From positions 682,001 to 746,000 of the forward strand of contig JARKIF010000012.1 in the NCBI GenBank assembly GCA_029378245.1: a stretch of DNA of 64,000 bases, in the 5' to 3' direction. The notes under the pieces were generated by a model. The model worked only from the letters and a program-made list of their open reading frames with translations. It had not been told where the DNA came from and searched no databases. This stretch comes from Roridomyces roridus (Eukaryota; Basidiomycota; Agaricomycetes; Agaricales; Mycenaceae). Below, piece by piece: positions 41,137 through 50,404 of this stretch (positions within the stretch are counted from its first letter, which is position 1; each line of letters begins with the position of its first letter). Both the position numbers and the translations under genes were made by a program.

Positions 41137-42021
41137 ATGTCATGAGCTCTAGCTCTTAGTATAATCGCTCAACTATCTACTCTATTCGTATTTCAACCCT
41201 GTTGTGTAGTTATGATAATACATAAGCTAGTCAGACGAATTCGTCCATTTTGCAACATGCCGAAACGGCCTTTGATCTCCGATGTGAGAAATCGAAGCAT
41301 ACAGGATGTTCAACGTTCAACCACGCCATTATGCGGCCTCTCGGCCGAAAAGAGACGTTAGATACTATTCGTGGAAAGATTCCGAATGTTATGTAACGCA
41401 AATGCAACGTTGAACGTTCACCATAAGCCGATCAAACGATTTTCCCCGCTCACGGCACTCCGCCAACTTACAGAAATCCTTGTTCAAGCTCCAAGTACTA
41501 TCTCATCGGAGTCGTGAATTCGGTCCGGAGGCCGTATCCCAATCCCCGTTCCCGCGCGCTAAGCGCTAATCACGTATCTACCCACTGGCACACCGGGTTG
41601 CTCAATTGCTGAAACGGCACAAATCCGGTTTCCTGGCCAGCCAGTCCAGTCAAGGAATGAGCTCGGGGGCCGGAATCTAAGCGAGGACTCGAGTCCCGTA
41701 CATATGTTTGATTGAAAGAATATCAGAATATTTCGCGACTGGAAGTTTGAACATCGGGACTCCACTCGGGGTAGCTGCCTCGGTGTCCCGTATTAACAGC
41801 GCTTAAGCGGTCGTGTCCATCCGAAATCCTCCGAGAACACTTGCTTGTTCCGGCCGCCCTGAAAACAGTCTTTGGAGACTCCGGCAAGAAGCGGAGAGCC
41901 ACTTGAAACGCATAAATCCATTGGATAGAATCGAAACAAAGAAGTTAGTGTTGCCATAATCATAATGAACCCGCCCGCTACACGGAGAACCCCGGTCCAA
42001 CCCCAACCGACGTACGCCAGC
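41137..42021. other. Intergenic with a short inverted repeat
   Basis: GTTCAACGTTCAA at 41308-41320 is mirrored by the related GTTGAACGTT block at 41409-41418, about 90 nt apart. A minus frame at 41793-42152 encodes a hydrophobic stretch next to the F-box C-half, but it lacks family support. Confidence 0.4.
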
Positions 42022-43135
42022 TCAAAGGTCCAGGCCAATAAAAGAAACGCGAAGGAGGGAATCCTGTGAACCAACATTAGTGAGCAGGTCTCGAAAATAA
42101 CCACAAGGCTTCTGGTTGCACGCACGTAGCTCATGCACCTCAAATACATCACGCGCCCTCGAGCGCGGAAGTATGCCTTCAGTCGATGACAGCGCTTCCT
42201 TCAACCAATCAACCGTACTCTGCGCCTCGGCTGCTACCCTCCCAGAGAACCCCCTCCCCCGCGCACGAGGAGTTCTATACGCGAAACACGTAAAGCAGAG
42301 CGAGCGCAATGCGTCGCCGGCAAGGTGTGGCTGATTGAGCGCGGCGTCCAGCGCGGCGAATGGGAGGTATTCGAAAAGGATGCTGGGGTGGAACTCGCCG
42401 TCGAACCCGCCTACACGGAGGTCAATCGTTATGTGGGCGAGCGAGTTGGGGCCGAGGGTGCTGAGGACGAAGATGGTCCATGGGAGTGGGTTGGAGTCTG
42501 CGGAGATGCCGAGGGATAGGCGGAGGTCCGTAAGATTGCGGAGGCCGCTGAGATTGATGTAATTTGCGGGAGTGGGCCAGCCTGGGAGTTGCATCAGCAC
42601 GGAAGGCACAGTGGAGGACAAGAAGTAAATGTACTGGAGTAGATGGGCTGGAGATGCAGCGATTCGAGCGTTTCACTGACGTGATTCAACAACGATTCGA
42701 CATGGGGCATGTCGTCCATCGGGTGAAAGCCGAGTCGCAGCTCGCGGAGAGCACGAAAGGTCGGGATGGTGATGGCCCATGAGAATACGCTTGGGAGGTA
42801 CACCGTGTCGAGTACGGTCAGAGATTCGCAGCTCTCCGGCCACGGTGCCGCCCCCACTTGTTCGGTAAGCTCCGCATCAGCGCCAATATCCCCCGCCCGG
42901 GCAATCTCGGAAAGCTTTATTCTCCTCGGACTCTTGCAGCCCCTGAAAATGGAGATATCCGCCAGTTCGAAGCCAGTGAGGTCCACATCAAGCATCGCAG
43001 GAGAGTTGATGAGGCGGTGAATCGAAATCTGCAAGATCTCGGGGAGACCGCTCCAAGATTCACTTGCCAGACGGATGTGCAGACTCTGCACTCGTGCCGG
43101 GCGCACGTCAGCGAGCATATCCAGTAGAGTAGGCA
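42022..43135 (-). pseudogene. F-box/LRR-like gene, C-terminal half (3' of the insertion)
   Basis: The minus strand encodes leucine-rich segments: LLDMLADVRPARVQSLHIRL, FRALRELRLGFHPMDDM and LESLHLQPIYSS. A 54-nt intron (GTACAT...CTCCCAG) joins to WPTPANYINLSG, and coding ends DSLLRVSFIGLDL at 42022. There is no F-box and no convincing start of its own. The missing N-terminal half lies at 48825-49195 on the same strand. The two are separated by the 5.7-kb element and share the 7-bp repeat. Joining them after removing the element and one repeat gives the in-frame junction DETLP-T-LLDML. The split gene cannot make its normal protein unless the insert is removed. Confidence 0.85.
43129..43135. 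repeat. Target-site duplication, left copy (GTAGGCA)
   Basis: GTAGGCA immediately left of the element, identical to 48825-48831 on its right. The 8th flanking base differs on either side, so the perfect duplication is 7 bp. Confidence 0.8.
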
Positions 43136-43260
43136 CACCAGTGCATGGGGGAATGATGTATCACCAATGGCGAAACAGCACAAGTAAGTGATGCATGATT
43201 GGTGCTCCCTGACCGCTGACCGTGATGCATCACTCACCACTGGCATTTTTGGCCATACCA
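43136..43260 (+). repeat. Left terminal inverted repeat
   Basis: About 100-125 bp pairing with 48700-48824. Similarity continues past the palindrome with CACTCACCACTGG, against CACCCACCACTGG on the right. Confidence 0.8.
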
Positions 43261-43617
43261 CAGTGAGGAGACCATCGTCTACGCTGCCTGCCACAATGAG
43301 CTCGAAGGTTCCGTTTTGGGAAGGTCATCACACGTCATTCCTCGGTGTGATCAGCGGCAACAAAACATCGCTCTTCGTCCCCATCAACGATGAGCTCGCT
43401 GCCACCATGCAAAATTTTCATTAAATACGAATAAAATCTGTAAAAATTCCTCGAGCTCGTAGCAGAACACTCAAATGCATTCACGGCTGTACTATCCCGT
43501 GAAAAGTGTAGGAAAATGCAGGAGTAGTCGTCTCGGCACGGACATACAGGGTGCCATGTGTGGAATTCTACATGAATCGACAGATCGTGCTACACGGCCG
43601 CGGGTACTTAAGCACGT

Positions 43618-44330
43618 CCTAGACCCAGTCGAGCTCCAGCTTGCGCCCGTGCCTTCGCCCTGGATCCTCGCCCGCGTTCCCGTCCGCTACACTTGCCTCC
43701 GTCGTCTTCGCCCTGCTCACCGCCCACGCCCACACCAGCGCCCGCAACCCGCCCGCCACACCCGTCCCACTCGGTCTCGTCTACGTCTGCGTCTGCGTCT
43801 GCGTCTGCTCTCACCCGCACCCGGATCTGCAGTAGCCATCGTCCTTGACTTTGCCAACGCAGTAAAGCTGGGAATGGACGAGGACGGTGACGGTGACGAG
43901 CGAGGACAGGAGTGAGTTGAGGGCGAACGAGGCAGATCGTGTCTCCCACAGCTGCAGCCTAGCGGCATAGGAGCGAGGACGGCGAGACGCAGCTGGCCTG
44001 ACACGTACGTCGTCGATACCTGCGTAGTCGCAGCCTCCAATGGGAGGGTTTCGTGCACGGGGCGGGGACAGGGACGGAGATGGGTGCGCTGGTGTAGCTG
44101 CGTGCACCGTAGCATCACAGCAAATGGGAATCGGTGGATGCGTCGTCCTGCTTGCATGCAGCAGACGGCAGTCAGGTCCAGGGCAGTCTGCGAGCGAGGC
44201 AGACCGAGGGCGTTGTCGGACGAAAGAGCTGGAAGTGAAGCCGGGGCTTTTGAGGGAAGGCGAGCGAGTGGCCACGACAGGGCACGGGGTACGACCGTGG
44301 GATGGATATGGCTTGCTTCATCGCAGGAAG
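43618..44330 (-). CDS. Candidate membrane-protein gene inside the element, GC-rich
   Basis: The minus strand ends in a natural-looking C-terminus (GRRHGRKLELDWV, stop at 43618). It is preceded by a hydrophobic helix (GVAGGLRALVWAWAVSRAK) and, upstream, another one (LNSLLSSLVTVTVLVHSQLY). A GTGAGA...CGTAG intron that contains the (GTCTGC)4 microsatellite could separate them, but the phases I tried do not join cleanly. An intron upstream near 44000 (acceptor GTGTCAG) is also likely. I infer a worn or mis-modelled multi-pass membrane protein of host origin. Family unknown. Confidence 0.35.
43787..43810. repeat. Hexanucleotide microsatellite (GTCTGC)4
   Basis: Four perfect copies, within a probable intron of the candidate membrane-protein gene. 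Confidence 0.9.
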
Positions 44331-46629
44331 TGAGGCTCAGAGGTTCCCGCCGAGTGCCTATGGGTGAGACTCCGCGTACGAGACCCAGCGAGCCTCGATT
44401 GCTCGACGGCTGGAACGGCGTAGTTTCCTGGGTGAAAAGTCAGTTATGCGGCATGGGAGTAGCCCAAAACCCTCGGGGCGGCGTGGCGGAGTGCATCTGG
44501 GTAGTGCTCGAAGAGATTCCGGCGGTTTGGTCGGGATGACGGAGCTCAGCGCCAGCATACGTGGCGGACATCGACGTAGCTCTGGCCACCCAAGTGAGGG
44601 TCTGAGCTGGCTAAGAGACGCACCCTAAACCCTGAACATGGTTATCGTCCATCTCCCGGCGTTTTGAGGCAGTTTAAGGTGCGTAGGAGCTCACACGAAA
44701 GCGAGGATGGTGGTGGGAGGAGAGATGATGGCAGAGGTACAGCCACAAATTGCCCATTTCTGGACGACTCCGCGAAACTCGCAACCCTTCGTATAGTACA
44801 GGAACATTCTGAATTCACTAGCGGAACAAATCAATCGTTTCAGAAATGCATGAGGATCTGGTGAGAACTCGGGGATTTGCGAAATTCCACTGTGTATTAT
44901 CAGCATAAGCGGAAATTGTTAGAGAATCGACTCGGCACTGGGTCTAGTGATTTTCTATTATATGGTCCGAGCTCCACGTCGTTTACGTGTATATGGGCCA
45001 TATGAGCAATGCCTGTCCGCTTTCGTGGTCAGAATGTGCACTTGCAGAAAAGTAGCTGGCTTCTAATCAATGCCTGCTTTCAACACTCATAATTTTTACT
45101 ACGCAGCAATTGGTGCTTAATGGCACCTGCAGGCAACGTCTACTCACTTCAAAGATTCATTTTCAACTTGGGACTTCGAAATTCTGCGCGGTCAAAAATC
45201 AGGTTTGAACTAAATGCATTTTATCTAGAGACCTGTATTGCGGATGTAGCTCAACGAAGCAAGAAAAGGGCTCCCTTGGATAATCAGAAAAAGAAGATAC
45301 AAGTTGCCCGGCAGTTTGTTGAGTCTGAGGAAAGATATAAGGCGAACATTTGTGGGTGGTCGGTAAGTGTTAGGCAGCATTAGCGAGTATCATTATGCTC
45401 GAAGGTCGGTTTCGAGCACTTTAGTGTTCCTCTCTCAAGATAATGTTCAAAACTTGTTCATATCGATTCAAATTGACTCTATAGGGGTCTAGAAACATGT
45501 GTGGATGAACAACGAACTGCCTAGGGCAGTCTGGTTCACGAAAATGTGTTGAATGAGGGAAGATCAAAGGCTTTCGCAGCCATTCCGGTCCGCTCCCTCC
45601 TTTTTGAAAGTAGAATTGAGATTCCCCACCATTGGGGAGATGCCTTATGTGGCCCGACACCGTAGCTCCTACAAGAGATGGCCGGGTTACCGTGCAAACG
45701 CTGAGAAGTTGAGATCGGCCCGTCGGGGTGTGCTTCGGCAACTCCGGCATGACAGCCGCTAGCTCGTCCCTGGCAACCGCATCGTGGCAGATTGATATCG
45801 GATGGGGTGATGCCGTGGACGCCGAAGCGATGTAACGCGGATTGTGGCTTTCCTGTCTACAGACCATTGAAGCTCTCAATTTAAAAATGGTATTGAGCTG
45901 GAATGAAAGCTGATGACGGTAGTACGTAGTGAAGAATGGACGAGAGTATGTATGCTGGGAGGGAGAAGAGGGTGCGTACCAGCAGCGTTTCTACGCTACA
46001 ACAGTACACGGGATCAACGAGGAACACATATACTCCGGCTCAAAAGAATGTCCGCAACGTGCAGGGTATAGGTGGGGATGGGACGACCGCGCGCGCTGGA
46101 AAGGGAAGCGAGCCCGCGCAGGGTGCTGGTGTCCAGTGGTGTGCGGCGACTGGAATAAGGAACCATGGGCGGAAACCATAATGGCAATACTTGGGGAAAG
46201 GATGAAGTCCGGGAGGATGTGATGATGTGGACCAGGGTAAAGGAAGAGGAAGGCCGTCGCTCGAGCGAGTACAGCGCAGGGTCCTATATGCCATCGGACG
46301 TGCTGGCCGCAGCCGTGGTCAGAGCGGGTGTAGCAGATGAGCCGTACTGGCGAGAGCGGGAGCGGGGAACGGGGCCTAGTGCGAAGAAGGGCCCAATGGC
46401 CAGGCAGGCAAGAGCCCTAAAGACGAATCCTGTCGAGCGACATCAGACGGCCTGTGCACCGCAGAAACGGACATTGAGGACGATATGGAGGCTGCGGGGC
46501 AATGGGTGGTGCACAGAAGGTACTGAAATAGGCGTTAGACACGAGAAATCTGGTCCCGACCGAGCACGGGCAAAGCAGGTCGCAGGGTGAAAATTGAGCG
46601 GGGCATCACAGCTGAAAGACTGGTCGTAC
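44331..46629. other. Interior of the element without a clear gene
   Basis: One minus frame at 45421-45879 (about 152 codons, ending RYEQVLNIILREEH) could be coding but shows no motif. Around 46000-46590 the minus strand is Pro/Ser-rich in several frames and could hold later exons of the gene at 46630, interrupted by stops. No transposase signature was seen. Confidence 0.3.
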
Positions 46630-46909
46630 GCACCTGAGTTTCCGCAGCGTTCGTCCTGACGTATCCACGTCTGCGCGCCTCCAGCTACGAGCCCAATTGC
46701 CCCGATACCGATGCGGAAAATGAGGCCAGTGTTCCCCAATATGCCCGGCTGCGCACGGGAATTTGAGCTATTGAAACGCGGGTTTTGCGGCGGGCGTGCG
46801 ATATGTTGGTGCTGAAGAGTGATTCTACCGAGTTGTGAGGGCAGGGATTTTCCAGGACGAGCGGAGGAAGGATTCCAGTCGAGGGGCGAAGCGAGGCAAG
46901 GTAGAGCTA
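46630..46909 (-). CDS. Candidate small membrane protein, 5' exon, inside the element
   Basis: The minus strand reads ARPPQNPRFNSSNSRAQPG, then a hydrophobic helix GLIFRIGIGAIGLVAGGAQT and WIRQDERCGNSG. It ends at a GTGCGT donor near 46634. The polar Pro/Asn-rich head, single helix and following WxRQDERCGNSG give the impression of a conserved host protein rather than a transposon protein. Later exons toward 46000 cannot be joined without stops, so the copy may be a captured fragment. The start codon is not settled. Confidence 0.35.
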
Positions 46910-46917
46910 ACATGTGT

Positions 46918-46992
46918 AAACACATCAGCAAAACTAAAATGATCTGGTGGATCTGGCAGCAGATCAATCAGACGCGCCAGACCGCCAGAACT
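46918..46992 (+). repeat. Nested inverted repeat, left arm
   Basis: CATCAGCAAAACT followed by an ATCTGGTGGATCTGGCAG block. The partner, inverted, is at 47880-47957 (CATCAGCAAAACT, then ATCTGGTGAGATCTGGCA). The arms bracket about 0.9 kb holding the gene at 47100. No target duplication was found. Confidence 0.65.
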
Positions 46993-47017
46993 GCATATGG
47001 CAGCATAATGACACGCC

Positions 47018-47043
47018 TGGCGCCAGAATCAATTCTGGCGCCA
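47018..47043. repeat. 26-bp near-perfect palindrome
   Basis: TGGCGCCAGAAT, a CA spacer, then ATTCTGGCGCCA: 12 bp perfectly inverted with a 2-nt loop. Related GGCGCCAG occurs near the other nested arm (about 47872-47879). Confidence 0.9.
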
Positions 47044-47099
47044 CAAATACACTAATGGGGGAGTAACAAAAGCTATTAAATTTGGGAATTGTAGACGGA

Positions 47100-47411
47100 T
47101 TACAGGGGAACGGCGTCAACGGCACCACTCTCACGTTTGCCGAGTAAGGCCGCGCCCCCGGAGAGGATCGCGTGACGCAATACGGGCATGGGAAGGGAGG
47201 AGGGACGCAGCGCAGGGCTCGAAACGACTAGGACACAGAACGCCGCACTACATGAGCCAGGGTGTGAGAATCCGAAACGGGAATAAACTGGTGGACTCAC
47301 GCTTCGCCCGCCTCGCATCGCTCGCCTTGCTTCGCCCGCCTCTCGGCACACCCTTCCAATCCTTCGACGACGGTCTTCTGAGTGAATTGATCCCACGTCA
47401 GCGCCGTGGCT
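47100..47411 (-). CDS. Candidate host-like gene, 3' exons, inside the element
   Basis: Two exons join in phase. Exon 47301-47411 encodes ALTWDQFTQKTVVEGLEGC and AERRAKQGERCEAGEA. A 53-nt intron (GTGAGT...CATGTAG, 47248-47300) follows, then exon 47100-47247 (AAFCVLVVSSPALRPSSLP ... ALLGKRESGAVDAVPL). The clean splice and codon sense argue for a real protein-coding origin. Upstream coding continues toward 47930 (a hydrophobic LIFGFQGTLLVSGLLG-like segment), but exon joining there is uncertain. It lies between the nested inverted repeats. The family is unrecognised. Confidence 0.45.
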   Translation of the reverse strand, partial: SHGADVGSIHSEDRRRRIGRVCREAGEARRAMRGGRSVSPPVYSRFGFSHPGSCSAAFCVLVVSSPALRPSSLPMPVLRHAILSGGAALLGKRESGAVDAVPL

Positions 47412-47879
47412 AGAGCAGCTGCCTAGAAGGCCAGAGACCAGAAGAGTTCCTTGGAAACCAAAGATAAGGGCTTGACGGCGTGAGGCGTGAGGCGAGAGCC
47501 GAGGCATCAACAGCAGGATGGATCCAAGGGTCTTCAAGTTGTCTTAGATCTTGAAGGCGTCGAGACAGAGGGATTGAGACGAAATTGAAGGGTTGGTGTC
47601 GTCGCGCGAGGGGGGAGAGGGAAGAAGATGAGGGCAGAAGACAAGTGGTGCTGCGGGCGTTTGATCAACAATGGCGTGATTGTTAATCGGACACCGATCT
47701 TCCGGACCACGTGCGTTCAGACTTGTCATTTTCAAGAATTCCGTGGCTTCCAGGCACCTCCAGGCAGCGAGCAAGAGGACCTCACGATGACTCTCAAAGC
47801 ACAGAACGATCGCACGGCTTGACACAGACAAATTTCTGTCAAGACTGTCAAAAACATTTTCGGCAGCTCCTGGCGCCAT

Positions 47880-47957
47880 GTCAACCAGACGGATCAGATG
47901 GTGCCAGATCTCACCAGATGCGCCAGATGGATTGAGTTTTGCTGATGCCACCTCGCA
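47880..47957 (-). repeat. Nested inverted repeat, right arm
   Basis: Inverted partner of 46918-46992; see there. Confidence 0.65.
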
Positions 47958-48699
47958 AACTAAGAGGGCAATGTATCCAGACACAGGGGTGTATTGAGCT
48001 CCTCTACTTCTCTGTCCTATCTAGCCACAGACCAAGCACGGTAGATCCAAGTCCGAGCCTTTCCCGAAATTCCGCCTACGGAATGGAGTCTCTGGCCCGA
48101 CGATCGATTCCAAGTTAACGTTGCTTTCACCGTTCCCGCGGCCGACAACACAAGTTGCAACTGGGTCTGGGACTTTATTGGGGAGAACGACTGCTGGATG
48201 TTGAGCCAATCGAAATTTCAACTTTCGAGTTTCGTTGAGTGCGTTTATCAGTTGGGTGACATTTTCCGAGCTGGCGCAGCTAATTTGGCGCTGCCGTGAG
48301 ACTTGAACCAACTATTCCATCCCAAAGTCCTCTCTCAAACTAAGTTGCCCTGTCGATGTCGCCCAATACTCCCCAAAGTGGTCAATCTCCTGATTTCCCA
48401 CCTTACTTAAAATTGATTTATCTCTCGACGCATTCGAGTTCCGATAAAACGGTCACCGGAGGGCTAAGTCTCCCTTATTACAGCTCCATATTTTGCAGTT
48501 GAAAATCTACCGCTAATATGGGCGGCGGTAGCCTACGGCACTCGGCGGCACTGGGTGTCACGGTGCCGCTGTCACACGGTAACTTTACCGCCGAGAGATT
48601 GCGGTAATGGCGGCATCGGCGGTACCGGCGGTAAATTCACCATGCCCACGCGGACCATCAATCGCGAGACAGTGGTCGGGAGGGTGCGCGAGGGCGGCC
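47958..48699. other. Right interior of the element, GC-rich hairpin patch
   Basis: No gene. From 48508 to 48632 the motif GCGGTA and its complement recur at least six times. TACCGCCGA (48586-48594) pairs perfectly with TCGGCGGTA (48616-48624). Such clustered subterminal repeats are common in TIR elements. Confidence 0.5.
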
Positions 48700-48824
48700 A
48701 CGGTACGGGTAAAACCCAGTGGTGGGTGATGCATCACGGTTAGTGCCCATGGACCACGAATCATTCATCACTTACTTGTGCTGCTTGGCCACTGCGTGAT
48801 TAATCAATTCCCCATATACGCCTG
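48700..48824 (-). repeat. Right terminal inverted repeat
   Basis: Pairs with 43136-43260. Ends ...ATACGCCTG next to the right GTAGGCA copy (48825-48831). Confidence 0.8.
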
Positions 48825-49195
48825 GTAGGCAAGGTTTCGTCGTGGGATATCCATTTGATGGACAGTGGCAGCATAGTCGTCCACGTCGGTCCAGCGAGGA
48901 GCGTCACATGGCGGATGTACGTTGCGATGTAGGGCGCCCCCGTAAGCACTTCGCACAGGACAGAGCAGTCCGTGCGGGGTCGATCTCTCCGCGGTGCACT
49001 GAGGCCTATGTGCTCGAAGAGGTACGTGCGGCTGATTGGGAGCCACTGCCTGCAAACGAGTGACGTCTTTTGTAGTGCGTCGAGGTCGTAGCGGATGTTC
49101 TCGATGATGAGCTGGATGAGCTCGGGAGGCAGTCTTGGAGGTGAATCATCGTGAGGTGGGGGCAAAGGAGCATCAACGATGGGCGCGTTCGCCAT
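48825..49195 (-). pseudogene. F-box/LRR-like gene, N-terminal half (5' of the insertion)
   Basis: The start at 49195 gives MANAPIVDAPLPPP, then a clear F-box (RLPPELIQLIIENIRYDLDA ... TSLVCRQWLPISRTYLFEHI). The first part of the repeat domain follows (YIRHVTLLAGPTW). Coding runs DETLPT straight into the right end of the element and stops soon after. The other half is at 42022-43135. An empty-site reconstruction keeps the frame exactly. The start of the ankyrin family gene's 3' end lies only 8 bp away (49204), same strand. Confidence 0.85.
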
Positions 49196-49203
49196 GCCCG
49201 AGT

Positions 49204-50199
49204 TTACCTGTGGTTGTCGTCGATTCCCATCTCCAGAAACTGTTCCTCCGTTTTATCAGCCGCGTCGGCCAACGGAGTCAAGTACTCTAAAACCGTCTTC
49301 ATCGCAGCCTCCTTGCTCGCTCCATACGCAAGCAACATCGCCATGAACTCTGCCCTTCCCTCGGTAGATGGAGGCTCCGAACTGTCCTCGCCTTGGGGGT
49401 GGGTGAGCCCCATCGCGAGATACAGCAAATTGGCCCTATACGGCGGCGTATGTCCATAACTATCATCCCGAATCCATCCACTATTGAGCGGCACGGCTGC
49501 CTCCGCCTTGGCTCCGTGCTCCAGCAGCATTCCCATCACCTCGAGACGGCGTGCACGTAGCGCATATCCCAGAGCGGTGCCGTATTCCCCCACGCACTCC
49601 GTATCGGCACCACGTTCGAGGAGGACTCGCACCGTCTCGAACCGGCCGACGGCACACGCATGATGGAGCGCCGTTTCTGGGACTTTGTATCCGTAGGGCT
49701 GATTGATCGGGGCGCCATGGTCGAGCAAGAGCCCCAGTATTTCCAGCCAGTCGTCGAATACCGCCAAATGAAGGGGCTGGAAATTATCTATGCCCGACAC
49801 GGATCGGGGATCAGCACCTCCGGCGAGGAGCATCGCGACAATTTCCGTGCTTCCCGCCTGCACAGCGGCGTGGAGAGCCGTCAAGCTGCCCGATCTAGAC
49901 CCGGGAGCCTCGTTGGGATTCACGAGGTGCGGAGGCGCCAGCAGCTTGGAGACGACGTGCGGCTTTGATTCTTTCGCAGCCCACAGCAGAATCCGTTTCC
50001 CCAGTTCAGCTGTGATGCGCGCTTGGAACTCGGGATCGAGGACCGTGTAGAGACGGTGGCAGGTTTGAATCAGCGCATTGAGCGATGCTGTGTCCAGAAA
50101 CGAAGCAAAGAGGGAGGACGCTGGTGAAGTAGCACTTGTCCATGAGGTACGGAAGCAAGAGGGGTCGCGTGGCTTCGTACGGCAACCTTTTCTTCCCAC
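49204..50199 (-). CDS. Ankyrin-repeat protein with F-box-like head
   Basis: The coding frame is intact from the F-box-like tail (SLFASFLDTASLNALIQTC, HRLYTVLDPEFQARIT) through six or so ankyrin repeats: LTALHAAVQAGSTEIVAMLL, PLHLAVFDDWLEILGLLLDH, TALHHACAVGRFETVRVLLE and ALGYALRARRLEVMGMLLEH. A longer last unit follows, and a C-terminal block LTPLADAADKTEEQFLEMG closes the protein. The frame is open to 50199, but the head before SPASSLFAS makes poor sense, so the true start is probably in an upstream exon near 50310, behind an intron ending near 50110. It would act as a protein-interaction scaffold, perhaps in an SCF-like complex. Two decayed relatives lie at 19943-21620. Being so near the element-split F-box gene is probably coincidence. 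Confidence 0.8.
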   Translation of the reverse strand: MGRKGCRTKPRDPSCFRTSWTSATSPASSLFASFLDTASLNALIQTCHRLYTVLDPEFQARITAELGKRILLWAAKESKPHVVSKLLAPPHLVNPNEAPGSRSGSLTALHAAVQAGSTEIVAMLLAGGADPRSVSGIDNFQPLHLAVFDDWLEILGLLLDHGAPINQPYGYKVPETALHHACAVGRFETVRVLLERGADTECVGEYGTALGYALRARRLEVMGMLLEHGAKAEAAVPLNSGWIRDDSYGHTPPYRANLLYLAMGLTHPQGEDSSEPPSTEGRAEFMAMLLAYGASKEAAMKTVLEYLTPLADAADKTEEQFLEMGIDDNHR

Positions 50200-50404
50200 A
50201 GAATAATATAAGTACCAAGTTGAAAATACTTATTCCTTGTCAGTGACATTGCCGTAGTGTGAGTTTGTAGCCGAATCAGTGCCGTGTTCAATTTCTGGCC
50301 ATCGTACACCAGATTCTCAGGGTTCACTTCAAGAAGAAACAATTATTGGCATATAGTAAGCTAGCAAAGCAAATGAGTAAACTAAATGTCCGTGCCGCAA
50401 GGCC

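Follow-up and report, generated by a model that had tools for sequence, protein, structure and literature searches.

How did the two halves of what looks like one F-box gene of the mushroom Roridomyces roridus come to lie several kilobases apart on the same strand? The locus is part of contig C24 of an assembly of 90.8 Mb in 501 contigs, and was analysed within a stretch of 64,000 nucleotides, hereafter the window. An earlier note on this DNA had read the intervening sequence as an element with terminal inverted repeats flanked by a direct GTAGGCA duplication, and the exact coordinates that it gave for both are borne out (Table 1). The element, read on the plus strand, is bounded by 5′-CACCAG..CGCCTG-3′.

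Table 1. Features of the split F-box locus and of the inserted element, in window positions
Feature	Position	Strand	Remarks
C-terminal part of the F-box gene	41978..43135	-	introns 42582-42634 and 42064-42125
Left 7-bp target duplication GTAGGCA	43129..43135		read from sequence
Inserted element	43136..48824	+	5,689 bp; non-coding as far as tested
Left (CACC-type) end	43136..43243	+	TGATnnATCA palindromes at 43154 and 43223
Nested element	46923..47947		1,025 bp; termini 5′-CATCAGCAAAAC..GTTTTGCTGATG-3′; PlavakaB-like
Other repeated DNA	47948..48650		703 bp
Right (CAGG-type) end	48717..48824	-	TGATnnATCA palindromes at 48727 and 48797
Right 7-bp target duplication GTAGGCA	48825..48831		read from sequence
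N-terminal part of the F-box gene	48825..49195	-	start codon at 49195; first 7 plus-strand bases are the right target duplication

When the element is deleted and the flanks are joined with one GTAGGCA, they read ...DETLPTLLDML... in frame, as that note had proposed. In the inserted copy, translation of the N-terminal part would continue into element sequence and end at 131 residues. The deposited gene model FB45DRAFT_71994 (341 aa) covers 43118-41978 only and is identical to the spliced translation of the C-terminal part; this public model is therefore the stump of a gene split by a transposon. The gene had been taken to end at 42022, whereas it actually ends at 41978 and its C-terminal part contains two introns. 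An apparent frame change in this half, considered as a frameshift acquired after insertion, is an intron, the same one as in the deposited model. As for the F-box/LRR label given to the gene, the N-terminal part matches the F-box-like family PF12937 below the curated cut-off (E 8e-4, 19.5 bits against 24.3), and the C-terminal piece submitted to Pfam matched none of its families, which leaves the LRR half without profile support. An ankyrin-repeat reading frame (window 49204-50229) lies directly upstream of the F-box gene on the same strand and is duplicated together with it near 598 kb of C24.

The unity of the two halves is established by an uninterrupted copy of the gene. On contig C499 the locus lacks the element, GTAGGCA occurs a single time and the two halves form one reading frame, the sequence on either side being near-identical to that of the window. 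The 474-aa translation of this copy matched 13 proteins, of which one has a precomputed PF12937 assignment and some are named F-box domain-containing. One of the 13 is the deposited C-terminal fragment of the window locus itself; the remaining homologues, all from Mycena, cross the junction ungapped at that point (12/12). Neither a lack of spanning homologues nor an alignment of the halves to different genes, the two outcomes that the earlier note had named as contrary to its reading, was thus encountered. F-box genes are numerous and this contig has a paralogue at a distance of about 125 kb, from which one could argue that halves of different genes were joined by chance or rearrangement, the flanking repeat being a coincidence. 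Faced with the uninterrupted C499 copy and the continuous homologues, by which a fusion of two genes is refuted, and with the same termini flanked by other 7-bp repeats at five more loci, such an origin is vanishingly improbable. We therefore treat the two halves as one gene.

The empty site was also found, in the same assembly, at the paralogue just mentioned: the gene pair is present again on C24 near 598 kb, in inverted orientation, and this copy lacks the element too, a one-base deletion breaking its frame. As neither C499 nor this paralogue has the element, the site was originally empty. C499 is most likely the other haplotype. To the right of the site it is 99.3% identical to the window over 5.6 kb and 99.4% over 5.3 kb (10.9 kb), with 0 differences in 48832-49084, and there are two in 42022-43135, the 1,114 bp directly to the left. 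Against these values stands an identity of just 95.8% over 4.5 kb further to the left, where the beginning of C499 is a rearranged repetition of this stretch. Together with the existence of the inverted gene-pair paralogue, it could mean that C499 is a second copy born of segmental duplication and no allele, in which case the insertion need not be heterozygous. Considering the near identity at and to the right of the site, and the copies of the element on C467 and C334, which likewise have single matching contigs, as expected if the assembly holds parts of both haplotypes, we judge a duplication unlikely and retain C499 as the probable allele. The insertion had been called fairly recent; its presence and absence between near-identical copies supports this wording as a relative statement.

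The F-box gene is also peculiar at its start and upstream of it. Fourteen differences between the window and C499 are crowded in 49085-49222, beside a gap of some 125 bp at about 49227, the adjoining sequence being almost identical. Within this cluster (49085-49227), the paralogue shares the state of C499 at 8 sites and that of the window at the other 6. Such a pattern has perhaps arisen by gene conversion, or reflects a polymorphism of long standing.

The element belongs to a repeat family. The search for other copies with the same ends, which the earlier note had recommended, yielded six complete ones: those of the window, C212, C467, C401, C334 and C135. The 15-bp termini are the same in all six, and each copy is flanked by an exact 7-bp duplication whose sequence is different each time, which places the insertion beyond chance. 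A near-identical uninterrupted site exists in the assembly for five of them, the window's included. The joined flanks of the other five copies were searched against the assembly, and sites were detected at C412 for the C467 copy (99%), at C452 for the C334 copy (100%), at three places for the C401 copy (100%), whose target is itself a repeat, and at ten for the C135 copy (97-100%), which (C135 489670-509558) sits within a high-copy repeat of a different kind. For the C212 copy the same search gave no empty site, the best match being partial and at 81%. This last copy, 3,980 bp long, is the closest to that of the window (98.9% identity over 3,790 columns). A sister subfamily, with an interior 72-77% alike, displays the 7-bp duplication at four of six loci inspected; one locus has none and at one the right end was not located. 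In the C334 copy the left end is interrupted by an insert of about 5.9 kb (L033 845-6759); this insert is bounded by GGCTCAT..ATGAGCC and by an 8-bp repeat, ATGCATCA, which places it inside the palindrome.

The window element is a non-coding, non-autonomous member of this family. Ten of its longer reading frames were compared with family profiles and none reached the cut-off of any family; a match to a cytomegalovirus family below threshold (E 0.0017, 18.1 bits for a cut-off of 23) was taken as chance. Among the reading frames of at least 60 aa in the C212 copy, none aligns over its full length without stops in every one of the six other copies compared, so that a protein-coding interior is supported neither by the profile tests nor by the comparison of frames across copies. 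Structured RNA was also looked for, with no Rfam match within 42000-50300.

The earlier note had described a single inserted element. A family member it is, and a second mobile element with about 700 bp of other DNA is nested inside it. This nested element has CATCAGC..GCTGATG ends and is repeated elsewhere in the genome at 77-99% identity; with the adjoining 703 bp (about 1.73 kb in all) it replaces 37 bp present in the C212 copy. No match to it is found at that place in any of the other five complete copies, hence the nested DNA either entered the window copy later or travelled with it. The nested element shares its termini, CATCA..TGATG, with PlavakaB as given in the relevant passages of PMC12730594, and two copies elsewhere have flanks fitting a 2-bp duplication (AA, AC). 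Unlike PlavakaB, no transposase was seen in the nested copy, and no duplication is visible around it because its right flank has been replaced.

What do the members have in common that a transposase could recognize? The two ends of the window element are inverted repeats, 84 nt at 83%, or 100 columns at 83% in a longer alignment (E about 1e-26). Of the landmarks reported earlier at mirrored distances, the 18-mer CAGCACAAGTAAGTGATG does occur 40 bp inside the left end and 41 bp inside the right one; for the palindrome GTGATGCATCAC the distances are 86 and 87 bp and not 90-99 bp. In the five copies with both ends tested, the inverted repeats are imperfect, about 100 bp long and 81-84% alike. The ends follow a shared design, 5′-CA, GGGG, then TGATnnATCA palindromes at fixed mirrored distances, these being, counted inwards, 19 and 88 bp in the left end and 19 and 89 bp in the right one for the copies with both ends tested, where the motif is found elsewhere just once, inside C135. 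Five TGATnnATCA sites are present in the 64-kb window, four of them in the element ends, against a mean of 1.24 and a maximum of 5 in 50 simulated runs. In the sister subfamily the motif stands at 19, 55 and 89 bp, some sites being lost.

An end pattern built from both subfamilies, which says nothing on the frequency of other end types, has 74 matches in the genome at no more than one mismatch, 34 of them exact, and none with the reversed control. All facing pairs (23/23) associate one CACC-type with one CAGG-type end and are 2.1 to 19.6 kb long; some of the pairs duplicate each other, and 28 matches are unpaired. Among the KDZ matches listed, five ends lie within 3 kb of one. All five are of CACC-type and at each the KDZ is inside and on the opposite strand, where 0.83 at most, an upper bound, would be expected at random (Poisson P 0.0017). 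KDZ domain matches number at least 160 genome-wide, many of them having a near-identical partner on another contig. Eight further pairs of ends (CACCTTAT.. and CAGGCCAT..), 2.1-5.1 kb apart and matched at one mismatch, form a third group, on C1, C90, C112, C211, C223, C326 and C465.

The link with KDZ is most direct in the long member, C135, of 19,582 bp, which has the same termini and its own 7-bp duplication and contains Pfam domains CxC2 (E 6e-33) and KDZ transposase (E 1e-35). About 2.3 kb without long reading frames separates these two parts, so the transposase gene looks interrupted; inverted repeats of 14 bp or more bounding the insert were looked for and none was found. Among elements with these ends no intact autonomous copy or active source was seen. 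The KDZ domain of C135 could in principle belong to another nested element. Its geometry beside the end is repeated at C13, C57, C112 and C279, the last two not being independent since they look like copies of one another. The C401 copy also contains a nested insert, of about 6.6 kb (L012 5389 to L013 5039), and a 23-base stretch at the end of this insert recurs in the DNA separating CxC2 and KDZ in C135 (L030 about 6460).

C135 also has a TET-like reading frame, which matches Pfam at E 0.02, below the cut-off, and in which HxD, the motif of the AG type, is present, so that it is not of the PE type. It has 169 relatives, nearly all hypothetical Mycena proteins among the 120 listed; of 17 compared with Pfam, 7 match Tet_JBP at E ≤ 0.1, the best at 4e-6. 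Searching solved structures (PDB) by sequence, with the single reading frame or a profile, gave no match to CcTET. The predicted model of a Mycena relative, P0005, which is 60% identical to the C135 frame (mean pLDDT 84.6), has CcTET as its best structural match (E 1e-11, TM 0.50-0.56, 16-18% identity). The C135 frame would thus resemble CcTET by fold only, through this relative.

Which known transposons are the closest? Kyakuja elements, KDZ transposons of Agaricomycetes, are characterized in the passages devoted to them in PMC12730594 by 7-bp target duplications, 5′-CA..TG-3′ termini and TET genes. The present family has the same duplications (6/6) and termini (6/6), and its long member combines a KDZ transposase with a TET/JBP-like frame, weakly matched in Pfam. 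On the other hand, the Laccaria families Kyakuja-1_LB and Kyakuja-2_LB have no terminal inverted repeats according to these passages, unlike the ends studied here with their imperfect inverted repeats of about 100 bp (83%). In addition, no transposase was found encoded in the window element, unlike in the Kyakuja described there, and the palindrome arrays have no mention in the same passages. Zisupton shares with our family the KDZ superfamily and terminal inverted repeats, and differs by 8-bp duplications (PMC12730594, in its part on this group), compared with 7 bp in 6/6 copies here. The element is therefore a Kyakuja-like KDZ element, not a proven Kyakuja: duplications and termini fit, the TET-like frame appears to, the absence of inverted repeats does not, and Zisupton makes 8 bp. 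In the open-licence literature, PMC12730594 was the single paper found on non-autonomous Kyakuja or KDZ elements in Basidiomycota, and none was found on KDZ transposases and subterminal sites.

Duplications of 7 bp are also produced by hAT7 in rust fungi, as stated in the corresponding part of PMC12730594, and no intact transposase copy was seen with the present ends. The mover could accordingly be a transposase of another superfamily, such as hAT7, with the KDZ of C135 as a mere passenger. This is quite improbable given that the KDZ-adjacent ends, among the matches listed, are of the same type, side and strand, and that 5′-CA..TG-3′ termini with 7 bp correspond to the published Kyakuja description in that source. 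We consequently favour a KDZ transposase.

It is very probable, in our opinion, that a KDZ-mobilised non-autonomous transposon inserted in the F-box gene on one haplotype. The earlier interpretation is largely right. A DNA transposon without its own transposase was cut or copied into the gene, duplicating 7 bp of target and breaking the reading frame about one quarter of the way along the protein; this insertion, its duplication and empty site, the family and the common ends are all read directly from the sequences. It would most likely have been moved in trans by a KDZ-type (Kyakuja-like) transposase from larger elements with the same ends, which appear to carry a TET-like dioxygenase gene as well. 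This transposase probably recognizes the two unlike ends via the TGATnnATCA sites at fixed distances, the palindromes being its putative binding sites. A broader proposal, for and against which we are evenly divided, is that Kyakuja-like KDZ elements possess an undescribed end code. CACC and CAGG ends would be obligatorily unlike, with GGGG and TGATnnATCA phased at about 19, (55) and 88-89 bp as transposase dimer sites. The transposase gene would always be near and point at the CACC end, and non-coding families of 2-5 kb, carrying the code alone, would still be inserting, and be heterozygous, in R. roridus today.

Transposon insertions whose empty site can be seen are ordinary. What gives this one more interest is that non-coding families are tied to KDZ and have a common asymmetric, palindrome-bearing end design, which is somewhat new. 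The locus provides a checkable insertion with its own empty site in one assembly, and exposes a deposited mushroom gene model as the remnant of a split gene. It links non-coding repeats to KDZ transposons, a class known mostly from proteins. With the end pattern, such elements can be searched for directly, and it predicts concretely the sites at which their transposase would bind.
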